From: Paracidovorax wautersii | GTDB lineage: Bacteria; Pseudomonadota; Gammaproteobacteria; Burkholderiales; Burkholderiaceae_C | Length of the DNA stretch: 64,000 nucleotides | Reading direction: 5' to 3' | Assembly: GCF_031453675.1 (NCBI RefSeq) | Contig: NZ_JAVIZX010000001.1 | Span: 1,944,001 to 2,008,000, forward strand | The notes under the pieces: generated by a model | Databases searched by the model: none | Told to the model about the DNA's origin: nothing | Seen by the model: only the letters and a program-made list of their open reading frames with translations | Made by a program: the position numbers and the translations under genes | Shown: positions 24,671 through 40,874 of the stretch, in pieces | How the letters are laid out: every line of letters begins with the position of its first letter | Numbering within the stretch: position 1 is the first letter of the stretch

Positions 24671-25039
24671 ATGTCGTTCGAAGCCCAACTGGCCGTTGCC
24701 GAATCGCAGCTCCATGAAGTCAAAACCGCGCTGCTGAGTACGCATGCGACGGATCTCGAGCGCTGCGCCGCGCTCTTGAGGCAGACCGCAGCCACCCTGG
24801 CCGCTGCTGCCGCCGAGTCGACCGGCACGAACGCCCAGCCACGTACCCCCGCCTTCACGCAGCGCTTGCGTGCCATTCAGGCCGAACTCTCCATTCAGCG
24901 CGAGCAATTGCAGCGGTTGCTGGTCTTGGCGGAAGCCCAGGCCGCCACATTCCTGCCACCGAAGGATGCAAGCACTTACGGCAACGGACCGGGGCCTATG
25001 GGCGCAAGTCGTGCCCGCATCTATCGGTCCAACAGTTGA
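24671..25039 (+). CDS. flgN: FlgN-family export chaperone
   Basis: A 122-residue, mostly helical protein placed where flgN usually lies, directly after flgM. The helices FEAQLAVAESQLHEVKTALL and RLRAIQAELSIQREQLQRLL fit the FlgN coiled-coil. FlgN binds the C-termini of FlgK and FlgL and takes them to the export gate. The identification rests mainly on position, size and helical pattern. Confidence 0.8.
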   Translation: MSFEAQLAVAESQLHEVKTALLSTHATDLERCAALLRQTAATLAAAAAESTGTNAQPRTPAFTQRLRAIQAELSIQREQLQRLLVLAEAQAATFLPPKDASTYGNGPGPMGASRARIYRSNS

Positions 25040-25189: not shown

Positions 25190-25969
25190 TTATTCCTTTT
25201 CAGATGGCGCGTGCATGTGCCGGCCAAAGTAGAGGCTGGTGCGGAAGAGCAGCTCGGTGCTGCGGTAGAAGATGATGTACTTCTTGCGCGGTCCGCCCCG
25301 GGTCAGGCCGATTTCGGGCGTCCGGAAGTCCACGAAGCACCCATGGTCGCTGGCCAGCTTGATCAGCGAGAGCGGGGTCCAGTACGCGACGTGCCCAGGC
25401 ACGAAGGGGTACTGGTGAAAGCTCATGTCCGTTCCATCGTAGATATTGGAACTGCAGATCAGGATACCGTCGTTCTTCAGCAGCTTGAGCAGCGATTCGA
25501 AATGGGCGACCGGTTCGGTGAAGTGCTCTATCACTTCCGACGCAAGGACCACGTCCGAGGGCGTTGCGTCCGCGATGGGCTCGAAGTTTTCGGCTTCCTG
25601 CATGTTTTCCAGGTCGACCAGTTTGGTCGATACACCGGGATACGCACGTTTGACCCACAAGTGGTCGGTATTGAGTCCGGAGCCGAAAAAGCTGATGCTG
25701 GCGTTGGGCTTGCCCACGATTTCCAGGCCCATCTCGGCCATGTAGAACTCACGGCCGGGTCGTTCGTCGGTGGCATTGCGCAGCGTACGCAACAGGCCTT
25801 CGCTGGCGCCTGTCACCACCTTCTTGTACTGGCCAAGATTTTCGGGATGCCGCACGAACCCGCAGGCCTTGCACTCGTACCCGCTCATGGTCTTGTCTTT
25901 GTAGGGCGCTACGCGGCAGGTGTTCGTGATGACTTCTTCCTCGCCTCCGCAAACAGGACATTGGCTCAT
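25190..25969 (-). CDS. class I SAM methyltransferase with N-terminal zinc ribbon
   Basis: A 259-residue protein. The N-terminus has paired cysteines (CPVCGGEEE and later YECKACGFVRHP), a zinc-ribbon-like element. The class I methyltransferase core has motif I as ISFFGSGLNTD, an acidic strand end KLVDLENM, VVLASEVIEHFTEPVAHFES and LLKNDGILICSSNI. The likely substrate is a sugar, polyol or phosphate group on a surface structure, given the next two genes, but this is inference. The start at 25969 has GGAG six bases upstream; an ATG four codons earlier has none. It is the last of the three-gene insert after fliA. Confidence 0.8.
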   Translation of the reverse strand: MSQCPVCGGEEEVITNTCRVAPYKDKTMSGYECKACGFVRHPENLGQYKKVVTGASEGLLRTLRNATDERPGREFYMAEMGLEIVGKPNASISFFGSGLNTDHLWVKRAYPGVSTKLVDLENMQEAENFEPIADATPSDVVLASEVIEHFTEPVAHFESLLKLLKNDGILICSSNIYDGTDMSFHQYPFVPGHVAYWTPLSLIKLASDHGCFVDFRTPEIGLTRGGPRKKYIIFYRSTELLFRTSLYFGRHMHAPSEKE

Positions 25970-26022
25970 CGGGTTCTCCATGACGGGGTTGTGTAATTGA
26001 TGGGAAATCGGCGAGAGAGGGG

Positions 26023-27366
26023 CTACACCCGCAAAATGACGCCGGTGTCGGCCGCACTCAGCAGCTTGGCGGATGCCAGCGCCACTTCGTAGGGGCTCAA
26101 CAGGGACCGCTGGTCCTCGTTGGCGAAGTTGCTGCGGCGCATGCTGGTGTCGGTGCGCCCGGGAACGACGCAGTTGACCCGCACGCCGTCTTCCTTCCAC
26201 TCGTCGGCCAGCGCCTGGGTCAGGTTCACGATGGCCGCCTTGCATGCGGAGTAGGCGGAATAGTCAGCCCGCCCCCTGGTGAAGGACGACGACGAGAACT
26301 GCAGCAGCATGCCTTTGGACGCCTTCAATGCCGCATGGCTGCATTGCGCCACGTTGAGAGCACCCAGGAGATTGACCGACACCTGTTCTGCCACCTGCTG
26401 GGGCGACTGCTGTTCGAGGGGGCTCTTGATCAACAGACCGGCCGCGTTGATGACGTTGTCGATGCGTCCCCATTGGTCCAGCAGGCCATTGATCGATGCC
26501 GCCACTTGGCCGTGGTCGGCGATGTTGCAGCCATTGCGGCGCGAGATGCTGTGCACCGTGCCGCCCGCCTCTTCCAGGATCTGCACGATGGCTTTACCGA
26601 TACCCATGCTGCCGCCGAAGACGATGGAATGCGTTCCCTTGAGATGCAGCCCGCCCAGATTGGGCGCCAGTTGCTGCTGGCGGATGCGAAAGAGCTCATC
26701 GGCGAGGACGAGATCGATGGAGTCGGTGATCTTGATGTTCTCGGAACTGCCCTTGACGATGCGAACCTGCCCCATCGGATGGCAGGCGAGGTAGATGCCG
26801 CAGTCGTCCGTGTAGTCGCCCAGCTTCTCGACCCCGATCTCCTCGTAGCTTTTCAACAGGGCCTGGTAGCGAAAGCCCTGGGGCGTTTGGCCGCGGTAGA
26901 TGTGGTCCCGCTTGGGGATGCTCTGGATGAATCCGTCGCGCTCGACGATGATGGTGTCGCTGGTCTTGATCGCCACATCGACAGCTTCGTAGAAGGACAG
27001 CGCCTCGACGACGTCATGGATGATCTGGTGGCTCAGAAAGGGACGTGCGGAATCGTGGAGGATGACGTTCTTGGGGGGATCGGCCCGCAGGTACCGCAGC
27101 GCCGCATAGGCGGACGCCTGGCGGGACGACCCGCCGACGATCACTTCGGCCCGGGTGTCCTTGAAGAGCTCCTTCGTGTACGCGAGTGCATCGGCCGGCA
27201 CGGTGATGACGATGCGGGCGTCGGGCGCATAGCTGTGCAGGCAGGCGAAGCTGTGCTCCACGACCGTCTTGCCGGCGACCCGGATGAACTGCTTCGGGAT
27301 CGGCGACTCCAGTCGGGTGCCGCTGCCACCGGCCAGCAGCACATAGGCCTGGTCGTTGTTCAGCAT
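26023..27366 (-). CDS. bifunctional cytidylyltransferase / SDR reductase (CDP-ribitol synthase type)
   Basis: A 447-residue fusion. Residues about 1-225 are an IspD-family cytidylyltransferase (LLAGGSGTRLESPIPKQF at the N-terminus, then VILHDSARPFLS and KITDSIDLVLADELFRI). Residues about 240-447 are a short-chain dehydrogenase: cofactor loop VFGGSMGIGKAI, NVINAAG, and the catalytic YxxxK in YSAYSACK. This domain order is that of Haemophilus Acs1/Bcs1, which reduce ribulose 5-phosphate and make CDP-ribitol. An MEP-pathway IspD would not be fused to an SDR nor lie here. It overlaps the LicD-type gene by seven bases, so the two are coupled. Confidence 0.82.
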   Translation of the reverse strand: MLNNDQAYVLLAGGSGTRLESPIPKQFIRVAGKTVVEHSFACLHSYAPDARIVITVPADALAYTKELFKDTRAEVIVGGSSRQASAYAALRYLRADPPKNVILHDSARPFLSHQIIHDVVEALSFYEAVDVAIKTSDTIIVERDGFIQSIPKRDHIYRGQTPQGFRYQALLKSYEEIGVEKLGDYTDDCGIYLACHPMGQVRIVKGSSENIKITDSIDLVLADELFRIRQQQLAPNLGGLHLKGTHSIVFGGSMGIGKAIVQILEEAGGTVHSISRRNGCNIADHGQVAASINGLLDQWGRIDNVINAAGLLIKSPLEQQSPQQVAEQVSVNLLGALNVAQCSHAALKASKGMLLQFSSSSFTRGRADYSAYSACKAAIVNLTQALADEWKEDGVRVNCVVPGRTDTSMRRSNFANEDQRSLLSPYEVALASAKLLSAADTGVILRV

Positions 27367-28946
27367 GCGATGGCCTCTGCGCTCTGCTCCTGCAGCAGGC
27401 TTTGGAGTTGCTGCAGCGTGTCGTCGCTCATGCCCAGCGGCTTGCTCTTTTGCGTATCCATCAGGCGGATCACCCTCTCCAACTTGTCATTGTTTCGATC
27501 GCGCAGAGCCTCAAGAGCCCGCAGCCGGCCGACGATCTGGTACACCGGCCCGCCCACATCGACCGTTGCGGGAGATTCCAGGTGGGAGATGTAGCCGGGG
27601 TCGGATTTCCGCCAATCGCCGAAATTCTCTGCGAGCTTCTTCTCGACATCGTCCGGGACGTAAAAGTCGATCCCCAGGAACTGCGCCGATTTGATGGCGA
27701 ACGGAGAAAAGGCAAATTTCTGCAGATAGCCGAAGTAGGACTCCACGCCCGTCACCAGCATGCCGTCCTCGGGGCGGTAGATGAAGATGTCGATGTTGAC
27801 GCCGGACGGGTTGTGCTTGACCGCCAGGTGGTAGGCGTGCCGGCCGTTCACGTGGGTGAAGTCCACGCCGAACAGGCCGGTCTTGAGCAGGGTGTCGATG
27901 ATGTCGAACTGGCCCTCCCAGCCGATGATGCCTACGTCGATGTCCTTGTCGTGCGCCAGCAGTTTGCCTTCGCGGGCGTAGCCGAGCAGCGTGCCGGACA
28001 CCAGGAAGGGCTTGTGTCCCAGCGGCGCTAGTGCGGTCTGCAGATCAAGCAGCGCCTTCGAGGCTTCATCAGCATCGAATTTGGGCTTGGCCGCCGGGTC
28101 GTTGTCTTCAAGGCGGGTGATTGTTGCTTTCTTCGCAGCAAGCAGCCCGATCACTTCGTCGAGCTTGGCGACGCTTTGCGGAAACTCCCCCAGATGGCAG
28201 TGGGCGCGGGCGATGTTGATGCAGGCTGCCAGCCGGTCCAACGGCGTGGTGGCGTTCTGCGCATGCCGGATGACGGCGCGGTGATCGCCGCAGAGGTGAT
28301 AGGTGCGGCAGGCATACAAGGCCAAGCTGCTGCGGATCTGAATCACCTCGTACAAGGTACTGACCAGGCTTTGCCGGATACGGACATAGCATGTGGCCAG
28401 CTTCTCCACCGGGTCGTTCATGCTCAGGAACTCCTGCCGGCGAAACAGGGTCTGGATGATCAGCAGCCAGGGCTTGACGTCGATCTTGCGCCGGATCAGT
28501 TCGGAGACGATGGTCTCCAGCAGGTCGAAGCGCTTCTGGTCCACGGCGAGTTCCACCGCCCCGACCCAGTCATCCGTGTCTGCGCGGCACTTTCGCAGGT
28601 CGGCCGGCTCCAGCGTGCGGCGATGCAGGAGATGGGACGCAACCACCTGCAGTGCGCTGCGGCCGGGCAGCGAGGCGAAGCCCTCGGTCTCCGCGCCCCG
28701 TCCGAGGGACTGGTACACGGCGAGCCACCGGGCGTGGTGCGCATGGTCGGCGAGGTTCTCCACGGCCAGCGAGGCGAGGTAGATCACGGTCGCGGGAAGC
28801 CGCATCATGCGTGCGGCATCGAGCAGGGCCGGGCTGAGAAGATCGTTCTCCCACTCATGCAGCGTCACCTGCTCCAGGTCGTCGTAAGCCTTGGCGTGGA
28901 GCAGGTGGTTGATCAGTGCCAGCTGGGGGAATTGTTTGTAAGACAT
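27360..28946 (-). CDS. LicD/fukutin-type phosphotransferase with helical N-terminal region
   Basis: A 528-residue protein. The first 300 residues are helical and TPR-like in character (LDRLAACINIARAHCHLGEF). The LicD/fukutin nucleotidyltransferase fold begins near residue 310 with FLVSGTLLGYAREGKLLAHD, then DKDIDVGI, the metal-binding DxDxD pattern, and a later VNIDIFIYRPEDG. LicD adds phosphocholine; human fukutin and FKRP add ribitol phosphate from CDP-ribitol. The coupled downstream gene is a CDP-ribitol synthase type, so ribitol-phosphate transfer is the best guess. Start at 28946 has AAGGA six bases upstream. It follows fliA by 59 bases on the same strand. Confidence 0.8.
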   Translation of the reverse strand: MSYKQFPQLALINHLLHAKAYDDLEQVTLHEWENDLLSPALLDAARMMRLPATVIYLASLAVENLADHAHHARWLAVYQSLGRGAETEGFASLPGRSALQVVASHLLHRRTLEPADLRKCRADTDDWVGAVELAVDQKRFDLLETIVSELIRRKIDVKPWLLIIQTLFRRQEFLSMNDPVEKLATCYVRIRQSLVSTLYEVIQIRSSLALYACRTYHLCGDHRAVIRHAQNATTPLDRLAACINIARAHCHLGEFPQSVAKLDEVIGLLAAKKATITRLEDNDPAAKPKFDADEASKALLDLQTALAPLGHKPFLVSGTLLGYAREGKLLAHDKDIDVGIIGWEGQFDIIDTLLKTGLFGVDFTHVNGRHAYHLAVKHNPSGVNIDIFIYRPEDGMLVTGVESYFGYLQKFAFSPFAIKSAQFLGIDFYVPDDVEKKLAENFGDWRKSDPGYISHLESPATVDVGGPVYQIVGRLRALEALRDRNNDKLERVIRLMDTQKSKPLGMSDDTLQQLQSLLQEQSAEAIAC

Positions 28947-29005: not shown

Positions 29006-29722
29006 TCAGTGCGCCCGCATCTTGGCGCGCAATCGGGCGATCGACTGGCTGTGCAGCTGGCATACGCGCGACTCGGTCACGCCCAGCACTGCTGCAATCT
29101 CCTTGAGGTTCATGTCGTGCTCGTAGTACATGCCCATCACGTACTGCTCCCGCTCGGGCAAGGTCTTGATGGCCGCGACGAGAGACGACTTGAGGCGCTG
29201 GTCGCGCAGCACGGCCATGGGGTCGGCCTCGCTGTCGGCCACGTGCCGGTCGAGAAAGCCTTCCTCGTCGTCGTCGCCGCGCGTCATGTCCTCCAGGTAC
29301 ACCAGCTGCGTGCCGCGCACCTTGCCCAGCAGCGTCTGGTAGTCCTCCAGCGACAGGCCCAGTTCGTCCGCGATCTCGGACTCCATCGGACTGCGGCCGA
29401 GCTTCTGCTCCATGCGCTGAACGGCGTGCTCGATCTCCTTCTGGCTCTTGCGGGAGCTGCGGCTCATCCAGTCGCCCTCGCGCAGTTCGTCGAGCATGGC
29501 GCCGCGGATGCGCTGGGTGGCGAAGGTCTCGAACTGCACGCCTTGGGCCGCTTCGTAGCGCGTCAGGGCTTCGGACAGTCCGATCATTCCGACCTGTATC
29601 AGATCGTCCAGCTCCACGTTGGGCGGGAGCTTGGCGATCATGTGGTGCGCGATCCGCCGTACCAGCGGTACGTGCTGGCGGATCAGCGCATCGCGATCAA
29701 GCTGGCCTTTGGCGGTGTACAT
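29006..29722 (-). CDS. fliA: flagellar sigma factor FliA (sigma-28)
   Basis: A 238-residue sigma-70-family factor for late flagellar genes. Region 2 includes LDDLIQVGMIGLSEALTRYE and FETFATQRIRGAMLDELREG; region 4 includes MNLKEIAAVLGVTESRVCQL. MYTAKG at 29722 is the usual FliA start. It lies next to the flhG-like gene and begins four bases after its stop. Its own targets are probably flgM, fliC and fliD in this window. Confidence 0.97.
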   Translation of the reverse strand: MYTAKGQLDRDALIRQHVPLVRRIAHHMIAKLPPNVELDDLIQVGMIGLSEALTRYEAAQGVQFETFATQRIRGAMLDELREGDWMSRSSRKSQKEIEHAVQRMEQKLGRSPMESEIADELGLSLEDYQTLLGKVRGTQLVYLEDMTRGDDDEEGFLDRHVADSEADPMAVLRDQRLKSSLVAAIKTLPEREQYVMGMYYEHDMNLKEIAAVLGVTESRVCQLHSQSIARLRAKMRAH

Positions 29723-38925: not shown

Positions 38926-39771
38926 ATGGCAGCAACTATCAATACCAACATCAGTTCGCTGAATGCTCAGCGCAACCTGAATGGAACCCAGTCGTCTCTG
39001 GCGACGTCCATGCAGCGCTTGTCTTCTGGCCTGCGTGTGAACAGCGCCAAGGACGATGCCGCCGGCCTGGCCATCGCCGAGCGTATGAACGCCCAAGTCC
39101 GCGGCATGAACGTGGCCGTGCGTAACGCCAACGACGGCATCTCCTTGGCGCAGACCGCTGAAGGCGCGCTGGGCAAGATCGGCGACAACCTGCAGCGTAT
39201 GCGTGAATTGGCCGTGCAGGCAGCCAACGACTCGAACAACTCGACCGACCGTACCGCGCTGGACAATGAATACAAGCAACTGGCCCAGGAAAATGCCCGG
39301 GTGATTGCTAATACCAAGTTCAACGGCCAGGCGTTGCTGACGGGTTCCGGCGGCACCGGTGGCTCGTTCACCTTCCAGATCGGCGCGAACACGTCGGGAG
39401 ACAACCAGATTTCCGTCGCTACTTCGAACATCGCCACGGCCATGACGGCGTCGACCCAAGGTTCTGCTGCCACGCTCGGCGCTACCGCCGCCTCGGCACG
39501 TACCGCGATGGACGCAATCGATACCGCATTGAACCAGATCAACAGCAAGCGTTCGGAATTCGGTGCCGTGCAGAACCGCTTCGATGCAGTGGTCGCCAAC
39601 CTGCAGGTGGCTTCCGAGAACCAAGCCGCAGCCCGCGGCCGGATCATGGACGCCGACTTTGCCTCTGAAACCGCCAACCTGTCGCGGTCCCAGATCCTGC
39701 AGCAGGCTGGTACGGCCATGGTGGCCCAGGCCAACCAGCTGCCCCAGGGCGTGCTGTCCCTGCTGCGTTAA
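38926..39771 (+). CDS. fliC: flagellin (first copy)
   Basis: A 281-residue filament protein. The N-terminal D0/D1 helices begin [19 protein letters not shown], with [19 protein letters not shown], the flg22-type region, at about residues 29-50. The C-terminal helices end [20 protein letters not shown] and [13 protein letters not shown]. There is almost no central D2/D3 domain, so it is a short flagellin. It has a FliA promoter and is followed by a strong terminator. The second copy is nearly identical in both end domains. Confidence 0.96.
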
Positions 39772-40019: not shown

Positions 40020-40874
40020 ATGGCATCTACCATCAACACGAATCTGGCCTCGCTGAATGCGCAACGCAATCTCAGCACCTCTCAGCTGTCTCTGGCAACG
40101 TCCATGCAGCGCCTGTCCTCCGGTTTGCGCGTGAACAGCGCCAAGGACGATGCTGCCGGCCTGGCCATCGCCGAGCGCATGAACACCCAGGTGCGGGGCA
40201 TGAACGTCGCCATCCGCAATTCCAACGACGGCATCTCGCTGGCGCAGACGGCCGAAGGGGCCCTGGGCAAGATCAGCGACAACCTGCAGCGCATGCGTGA
40301 ACTGGCGGTGCAGGCTGCGAATGACACCAATGGCGGATCCGACCGCACCGCCCTGGACAACGAATTCAAGCAGCTGGCGGCAGAAAATGCGCGTGTGATC
40401 GCTAACACCAAGTTCAACGGGCAGCCTTTGCTTACCGGCTCTGGCGGCACTGGCGGCACGTTCACTTTCCAGGTAGGTGCCAACACGGGCGCGGACAATC
40501 AGATCAGCATCACTACCTCCGCCATTGCGACAAGCATGGGGGCGGTGACGCAAGGTACGACTTCGGCTGCTACCTTGGGCATCACTGCGACGACCGCGCG
40601 GGCGGCGATGGACGCTATCGACACCGCCTTGACGGCCATCAACGGGGCACGGTCCACCTTTGGTGCATCGCAAAACCGCTTCGAAGCCGTGATTTCCAAT
40701 CTGCAGGTCGCCTCGGAGAATCAGGCGGCGGCCCGCGGCCGTATCATGGATGCGGACTTTGCGGCAGAAACCGCCAACCTGTCCCGTGCCCAGATTCTCC
40801 AGCAGGCGGGAACCGCCATGGTGGCGCAGGCCAACCAGATTCCGCAGACGGTGCTGCAGCTGCTCCAGGGGTAA
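40020..40874 (+). CDS. fliC: flagellin (second copy)
   Basis: A 284-residue flagellin, paralogous to the first copy 249 bases upstream. It starts [20 protein letters not shown] and keeps the same D0/D1 helices; differences cluster in the short centre and at a few N-terminal sites. It ends QTVLQLLQG. AGGAG precedes the ATG. I found no good FliA promoter in the gap after the terminator, so its expression may differ from the first copy. Confidence 0.95.
   Translation: MASTINTNLASLNAQRNLSTSQLSLATSMQRLSSGLRVNSAKDDAAGLAIAERMNTQVRGMNVAIRNSNDGISLAQTAEGALGKISDNLQRMRELAVQAANDTNGGSDRTALDNEFKQLAAENARVIANTKFNGQPLLTGSGGTGGTFTFQVGANTGADNQISITTSAIATSMGAVTQGTTSAATLGITATTARAAMDAIDTALTAINGARSTFGASQNRFEAVISNLQVASENQAAARGRIMDADFAAETANLSRAQILQQAGTAMVAQANQIPQTVLQLLQG

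Follow-up and report, generated by a model that had tools for sequence, protein, structure and literature searches.

Gene content of the locus

A 64,000-nucleotide stretch of the Paracidovorax wautersii genome (NCBI RefSeq assembly GCF_031453675.1, contig NZ_JAVIZX010000001.1, positions 1,944,001 to 2,008,000; hereafter the window) contains three minus-strand genes between fliA and flgN that probably form a horizontally mobile module for the modification of flagellin with ribitol phosphate from cytidine diphosphate (CDP)-ribitol, a proposal reached by computation. A first-pass annotation of the window had recognized the three genes from the sequence alone, and their open reading frames were confirmed at that place and on that strand. 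The trio begins 59 bases downstream of fliA (sigma-28; 29006..29722, minus strand), on the same strand, with a gene for a 528-residue protein that joins a TPR-like solenoid to a LicD/FKRP-type phosphotransferase (27360..28946). This gene shares a 7-base overlap (27360-27366) with a gene for a 447-residue fusion of an IspD domain to a short-chain reductase (SDR) domain (26023..27366), the proposed ribulose-5-phosphate reductase and CDP-ribitol synthase. After a gap of 53 bases follows the gene for an accessory, 259-residue, zinc-ribbon class I S-adenosylmethionine (SAM) methyltransferase (25190..25969), for which the start MSQCPVCGG was chosen because it is common to homologues that have no upstream ATG. 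The trio is assumed to be transcribed by read-through from fliA.

The surrounding flagellar cluster is complete and extends from flgL to fliR, including che and mot genes and two plus-strand copies of fliC (38926..39771 and 40020..40874), the products of which are the proposed acceptors. The trio is flanked on one side by fliA, on the minus strand, and on the other by flgN, flgM and flgA, on the plus strand, with flgN (24671..25039) as its convergent neighbour. Most flagellar gene names in the window come from reading of the translations, and a few were checked by Pfam. The trio is poorer in guanine plus cytosine than the window, at 58.7-63.4% versus 67.3%. Given that its order and place are conserved in other species, the trio is not a chance arrangement.

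A transferase with an FKRP-like catalytic domain

The LicD protein consists of two domains, a solenoid (residues 1-272) and a nucleotidyltransferase-fold domain (residues 290-475), followed by a helical tail. In an AlphaFold2 model built from 11 homologues, with a mean predicted local distance difference test score (pLDDT) of 88, the helices of residues 3-272 form the solenoid and the nucleotidyltransferase fold runs from residue 290 onward. The closest structural match to the catalytic domain is human FKRP, an enzyme linked to muscular dystrophy, both by Foldseek (E 2.6e-5, probability 1.00) and by VIA-align (Z 15.8, 2.8 A over 153 residues), with other nucleotidyltransferases of the ANT(2'')/LnuA type scoring lower, at Z 12-13. 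FKRP requires D360, D362, D364 and D416 and carries an hG[GS] motif (PMC6965139). Residues D333, D335, D337 and D386, together with S317-G318-T319, correspond to the essential residues of FKRP in motif and in spacing. The SGTLLG and DKDxD motifs are kept in 12 homologues, where only T319 and I336 vary; S317-G318 and the four aspartates are invariant, and T319 is present in 11 of the 12. The Pfam LicD model matches all 11 homologues scanned, at best with 9.6e-9. The assignment of a LicD/fukutin-type transferase with SGTLLG and DxDxD motifs, made in the first-pass annotation along with a parallel to fukutin and FKRP, thus gains both motif conservation and a nearest fold. LicD-domain proteins transfer phosphate along with the alcohol (PMC4873967).

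The solenoid half matches TPR proteins by Foldseek only at E 7e-3, the first of these being the TPR domain of O-GlcNAc transferase, and TPR matches by Pfam occur in several LicD homologues (best 4.1e-5), such that the label of TPR-like is fair but not firm. Between the window protein and the Hydrogenophaga copies, identity is 39-44% in the N-terminal domain and 66-70% in the C-terminal domain, and the fusions are 75-85% identical. The presumed acceptor-binding domain therefore appears to evolve fastest, as would be expected if it follows its acceptor. In Caulobacter FlmG, the TPR domain alone binds flagellins (PMC7591256).

The IspD-SDR fusion

Both domains of the fusion were found by Pfam in the order originally proposed, with IspD at residues 9-225 (4.7e-46) and adh_short, a short-chain reductase, at residues 280-417 (4.3e-31) within a reductase domain that spans residues 241-447. 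An N-terminal IspD and a C-terminal SDR in a single chain is the arrangement of the Bcs1 and Acs1 proteins of Haemophilus influenzae. Haemophilus Bcs1 converts ribulose 5-phosphate, NADPH and CTP to CDP-ribitol (PMC10299916). The closest solved relatives of the fusion are ribitol-5-phosphate cytidylyltransferases (TarI; E 7.7e-35 and 8e-33). In alignment with fusions of capsule loci, both halves keep their motifs, namely GGxGxR, PKQF, GQTPQ, GGxxGIG, Ser-Ser-Ser and YSxxK. The Ser/Tyr/Lys set of the SDR is conserved, and this half can be aligned over its full length with that of fusions whose genes neighbour a TagF-type transferase gene.

The earlier suggestion of kinship with CDP-ribitol enzymes is supported by grouping, in that ribitol-5-phosphate cytidylyltransferases, along with Bcs1-like fusions of capsule and O-antigen-type loci, group with the fusion, whereas the IspD of its own genome does not. 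A branch with full support (100/100) separates the nine flagellar fusions from those of capsule loci. The more distant fusions, at 38-41% identity, are found in capsule and O-antigen-type loci: one adjoins a TagF-type transferase (PF04464), one lies in a capsule-export-type locus, one in an O-antigen-like Proteus locus with a LicD gene, and one in a Parabacteroides polysaccharide locus, where a LicD gene comes immediately after it.

A role of the fusion as the isoprenoid IspD was considered and is ruled out by a separate ispD-ispF pair in the window genome (G000:C1, about 4188 kb), which means that the fusion is not the sole IspD. The fusion carries the motif TDDC, compared to TDEA in the housekeeping IspD and TDAC in TarI.

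Flagellar linkage of the module

The homologue search ignored gene context, and the phylum-wide search was a single-sequence search. Full-length LicD homologues form a set of 12, from the window species, five Hydrogenophaga-group genomes (L009-L012, L052), genomes G088, G162, G1534, G1548 and G1515, and the Octadecabacter arcticus plasmid pOA238_118. Every member of the set is encoded among or next to flagellar genes; there are seven arrangements, in most of which fliC is adjacent. The order fliA-LicD-fusion-methyltransferase is shared by the window species and the five Hydrogenophaga-group genomes. In G088, the genes for a HAD-like protein, the fusion and LicD are divergent from two fliC genes and adjoin pseB, pseC, pseF and pseG of the pseudaminic acid (Pse) pathway, a typical pathway for flagellin sugars. 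G162 has flgK, flgL, fliD, two fliC genes, LicD and the fusion before the contig ends, and G1534 has fliD, fliC, LicD, the fusion and a different methyltransferase. The LicD gene of G1548 is beside fliC, between genes for a TPR-GT41 glycosyltransferase and a glycerol-3-phosphate cytidylyltransferase (TIGR01518, above cut-off). In G1515, fliC is followed by LicD, a GT2 gene and a second, short LicD gene (L055:5487-6320), and in Octadecabacter a flagellin gene is followed by a TagD-like gene, LicD and a Stf0-type sulfotransferase.

The first-pass annotation had drawn a flagellar link from one position, and the same link is seen in no fewer than six other arrangements, in most of which the genes directly adjoin fliC. 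Since the flagellar cluster makes up about 1% of the window genome, the linkage is not a product of chance, although there is some relatedness among the genomes; a chance location of the trio is ruled out by the six further arrangements. Homologues mainly in capsule or lipopolysaccharide (LPS) loci had been set beforehand as a finding that would speak against a flagellar role, and such surroundings are found only for the distant fusions and for LicD matches limited to the C-terminal domain. No flagellar neighbours were recognized for those partial matches (L028-L033), nor for matches on Paracoccus and Phaeobacter plasmids, which likewise cover only the C-terminal part and have capsule-type surroundings. 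No LicD homologue was found in the phage collection searched.

In two of the homologous loci, glycerol-3-phosphate cytidylyltransferase-like genes (L054:10591-11034 and L048:10928-11338) replace the fusion beside fliC and the TPR-LicD gene. Donor modules may therefore be swappable, and the gene content of these TagD-like-linked loci suggests a flagellin that carries glycerol phosphate.

Insertion and possible transfer

Among 17 species of the window's genus, 15 of the 16 congeners have an empty site, where fliA is followed by flgN; the gap, where measured, is about 105-220 bases. Other genes occupy this site in the sixteenth congener. Identity to most Hydrogenophaga copies is 85% for the fusion, about 76% for FliA and about 80% for FlhA. 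Because the fusion is more similar than either flagellar protein, the comparison is consistent with transfer of the module between lineages. LPS-type genes follow fliA instead of flgN in one congener (G089, L075:4981-8080), where the flagellar cluster is split, and in several Hydrogenophaga genomes unrelated genes lie between the methyltransferase gene and flgN or replace flgN (L010:13806-21611, L011:13829-17223, L012:13770-14924). The gap between fliA and flgN looks like an insertion-prone site.

Proposed mechanism and its alternatives

The domain make-up, catalytic residues, operon order, flagellar linkage and insertion at an empty site are read from sequence or model, and from them we infer a donor, an acceptor, an order of steps and a methylation. 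The SDR half of the fusion would reduce D-ribulose 5-phosphate, a common ketopentose phosphate of the cell, to D-ribitol 5-phosphate with NAD(P)H, and the IspD half would join the product to CMP to give CDP-ribitol. The TPR-like solenoid of the LicD protein would hold unexported flagellin in the cytoplasm, in the manner of FlmG, while the FKRP-like domain would transfer the whole ribitol 5-phosphate group from CDP-ribitol, and not just ribitol, with release of CMP. The acceptor hydroxyl would belong either to flagellin itself or to a small sugar that flagellin already carries. In the fliA-linked sub-group only, the methyltransferase might then methylate the product or its acceptor.

A sugar acceptor is favoured in G088, G1548 and G1515, given that Pse, GT41 and GT2 genes adjoin the module there. 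No glycosyltransferase or other glycan genes were seen adjoining the window trio, and no Maf-family flagellin glycosyltransferase (PF01973) was found in the window genome, in a search for which the matching controls were not known flagellin modifiers. Therefore, direct attachment to the protein is possible in the window species. A bolder extension, plausible yet held only tentatively, is that the TPR-LicD family puts alditol phosphates directly on serine or threonine of flagellin through a protein-phosphodiester-alditol link, as ribitol phosphate here and as glycerol phosphate in the TagD-like-linked loci, with interchangeable donors and horizontal spread across alpha- and betaproteobacteria. 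The window genome also contains a GT41 gene, O-GlcNAc-transferase-like, about 0.75 Mb from the flagellar cluster (G000:C1:1199983-1201053), a possible source of sugar on flagellin.

Several observations weigh against the modification of flagellin with ribitol phosphate. The fusion scores 151.2 bits against the cut-off of 166 of the NCBIfam model for D-ribitol-5-phosphate cytidylyltransferase, a miss of 15 bits that lowers the claim to Bcs1/Acs1 membership modestly, since that model covers only a single cytidylyltransferase domain; the fusion is also under the NCBIfam ispD cut-off. The Pfam LicD match to the window protein (5.8e-4) is to the core motif only and reaches 20.5 bits against a cut-off of 22.6. 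No sigma-28 promoter upstream of the trio scores above 9 of 12, and the methyltransferase is missing from the fliC-linked loci. The sugar genes of other loci suggest a glycan acceptor in those loci, whereas no such genes adjoin the window trio. The LicD gene is also rare, present in one of the 17 species of the genus, the window species itself, and in five of 401 genomes at the level of the family; the trio is patchy and does not track with fliA across the family.

The score below the ribitol-specific cut-off leaves room for another pentitol, and the module could make and transfer a different CDP-alcohol, such as CDP-arabinitol, CDP-xylitol or that of another alditol, with the same architecture and target. 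The flagellar loci with a glycerol-3-phosphate cytidylyltransferase agree with this idea in that they show the transferase family not to be restricted to ribitol. It is nevertheless unlikely, given that the nearest solved relatives of the fusion act on ribitol 5-phosphate, that fusions next to a TagF-type transferase match the SDR half along its whole length and that ribulose 5-phosphate is common in cells. Rather unlikely, too, is a role for the trio in decorating LPS, capsule or some other glycan of the envelope, with its place among flagellar genes an accident: the capsule and O-antigen-type settings of distant fusions, twice with a LicD gene, and of remote LicD domains would fit, but they are countered by the flagellar linkage of every full-length LicD homologue, mostly beside fliC, by the separate, fully supported group of flagellar fusions and by the lack of other glycan genes beside the window trio.

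Position directly behind fliA could instead suggest that the proteins are inactive, or that they serve to control the expression of flagellar genes and leave the filament unmodified. Given that all known catalytic residues of fusion and transferase are kept across homologues, and that other copies do not adjoin fliA, this explanation is very unlikely. Even less credible is that the fusion serves isoprenoid synthesis with the LicD protein as an accidental neighbour; in spite of the strong IspD match, the genome has its own ispD-ispF pair, and the fusion carries a reductase, travels with LicD and differs from the housekeeping enzyme at TDDC. The interpretation of the first-pass annotation, a flagellar ribitol-phosphate module, is therefore supported as the best available, and to it are added the homologue family, the catalytic-site match, the insertion history and the pattern of donor swapping.

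Relation to known systems

The human system of ISPD with fukutin and FKRP, which acts on alpha-dystroglycan (PMC4873967, PMC6965139), combines, as is proposed here, an IspD-type CDP-ribitol synthase with LicD-fold ribitol-phosphate transferases and a protein-borne acceptor, and FKRP shares the four catalytic aspartates, the hG[GS] motif and the catalytic fold. The window system differs in that it is bacterial, its fusion has a reductase domain with catalytic residues present, and its transferase carries a TPR-like solenoid in place of the GalNAc-transferase-like stem of FKRP. Bcs1 and Acs1 of H. influenzae (Bcs1, PMC10299916), likened here by description only, share the domain order and the proposed reaction; they are encoded in capsule loci rather than a flagellar locus, and the transferase there is the TagF-like CroT domain of Bcs3 rather than a LicD-type protein.

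FlmG of Caulobacter (PMC7591256) also has an N-terminal TPR-type solenoid, a C-terminal transferase and a flagellin acceptor, as proposed here, but its GT-B domain adds pseudaminic acid, where the window protein has a LicD-type phosphotransferase domain. Type A flagellin modification in Clostridioides difficile (cd0240-cd0244; PMC8861647) resembles the proposal in a phosphate-linked small molecule on flagellin and a methyltransferase in the cluster, although the product is GlcNAc-phospho-N-methylthreonine and no CDP-ribitol synthase is described there. The Proteus and Parabacteroides surface-polysaccharide loci also pair these two enzymes, in genes that are adjacent or separated by a single other gene, with a short LicD that lacks the solenoid and a fusion of about 39% identity.

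In the open-access collection searched, which does not extend to subscription papers, nothing was found that links flagellin with CDP-ribitol or fukutin, or LicD with flagellin glycosylation. To our knowledge, ribitol phosphate is found on protein only in alpha-dystroglycan and on bacterial surfaces only in polysaccharides. If the proposal is true, ribitol phosphate would have a bacterial protein target, FKRP chemistry would have a soluble bacterial model, and an enzyme family would be able to swap CDP-ribitol and CDP-glycerol donors. The filament would acquire a negatively charged coat, which could alter phage binding, immune sensing or surface behaviour.

Methyltransferase and other accessory genes

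The methyltransferase matches Methyltransf_23 (Pfam, 8.6e-9), and its CxxC...CxxC zinc ribbon and class I SAM domain are kept in six genomes, always third in the operon. The zinc-ribbon identity given to it in the first-pass annotation holds, and the cap suggested there would concern one sub-group only; since the fliC-linked loci lack it, the enzyme is best seen as accessory. Its place is taken by a HAD-like protein in two loci and by a different methyltransferase in one. Its structure model was poor (pLDDT 48.5) and was not used.

In one fliC-linked locus, the fusion gene is immediately followed by a gene for an 845-residue protein with an N-terminal HAD-like domain (L016:5869-8406); in L017, the contig ends in the first part of a similar protein. 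A gene for a 531-residue protein with no Pfam match (L016:4088-5683) separates this HAD-like gene of L016 from the Pse genes. In Octadecabacter, the Stf0-type sulfotransferase gene (L048:12886-13629) directly follows the flagellin-linked LicD gene, making a sulfated flagellin possible in that organism.

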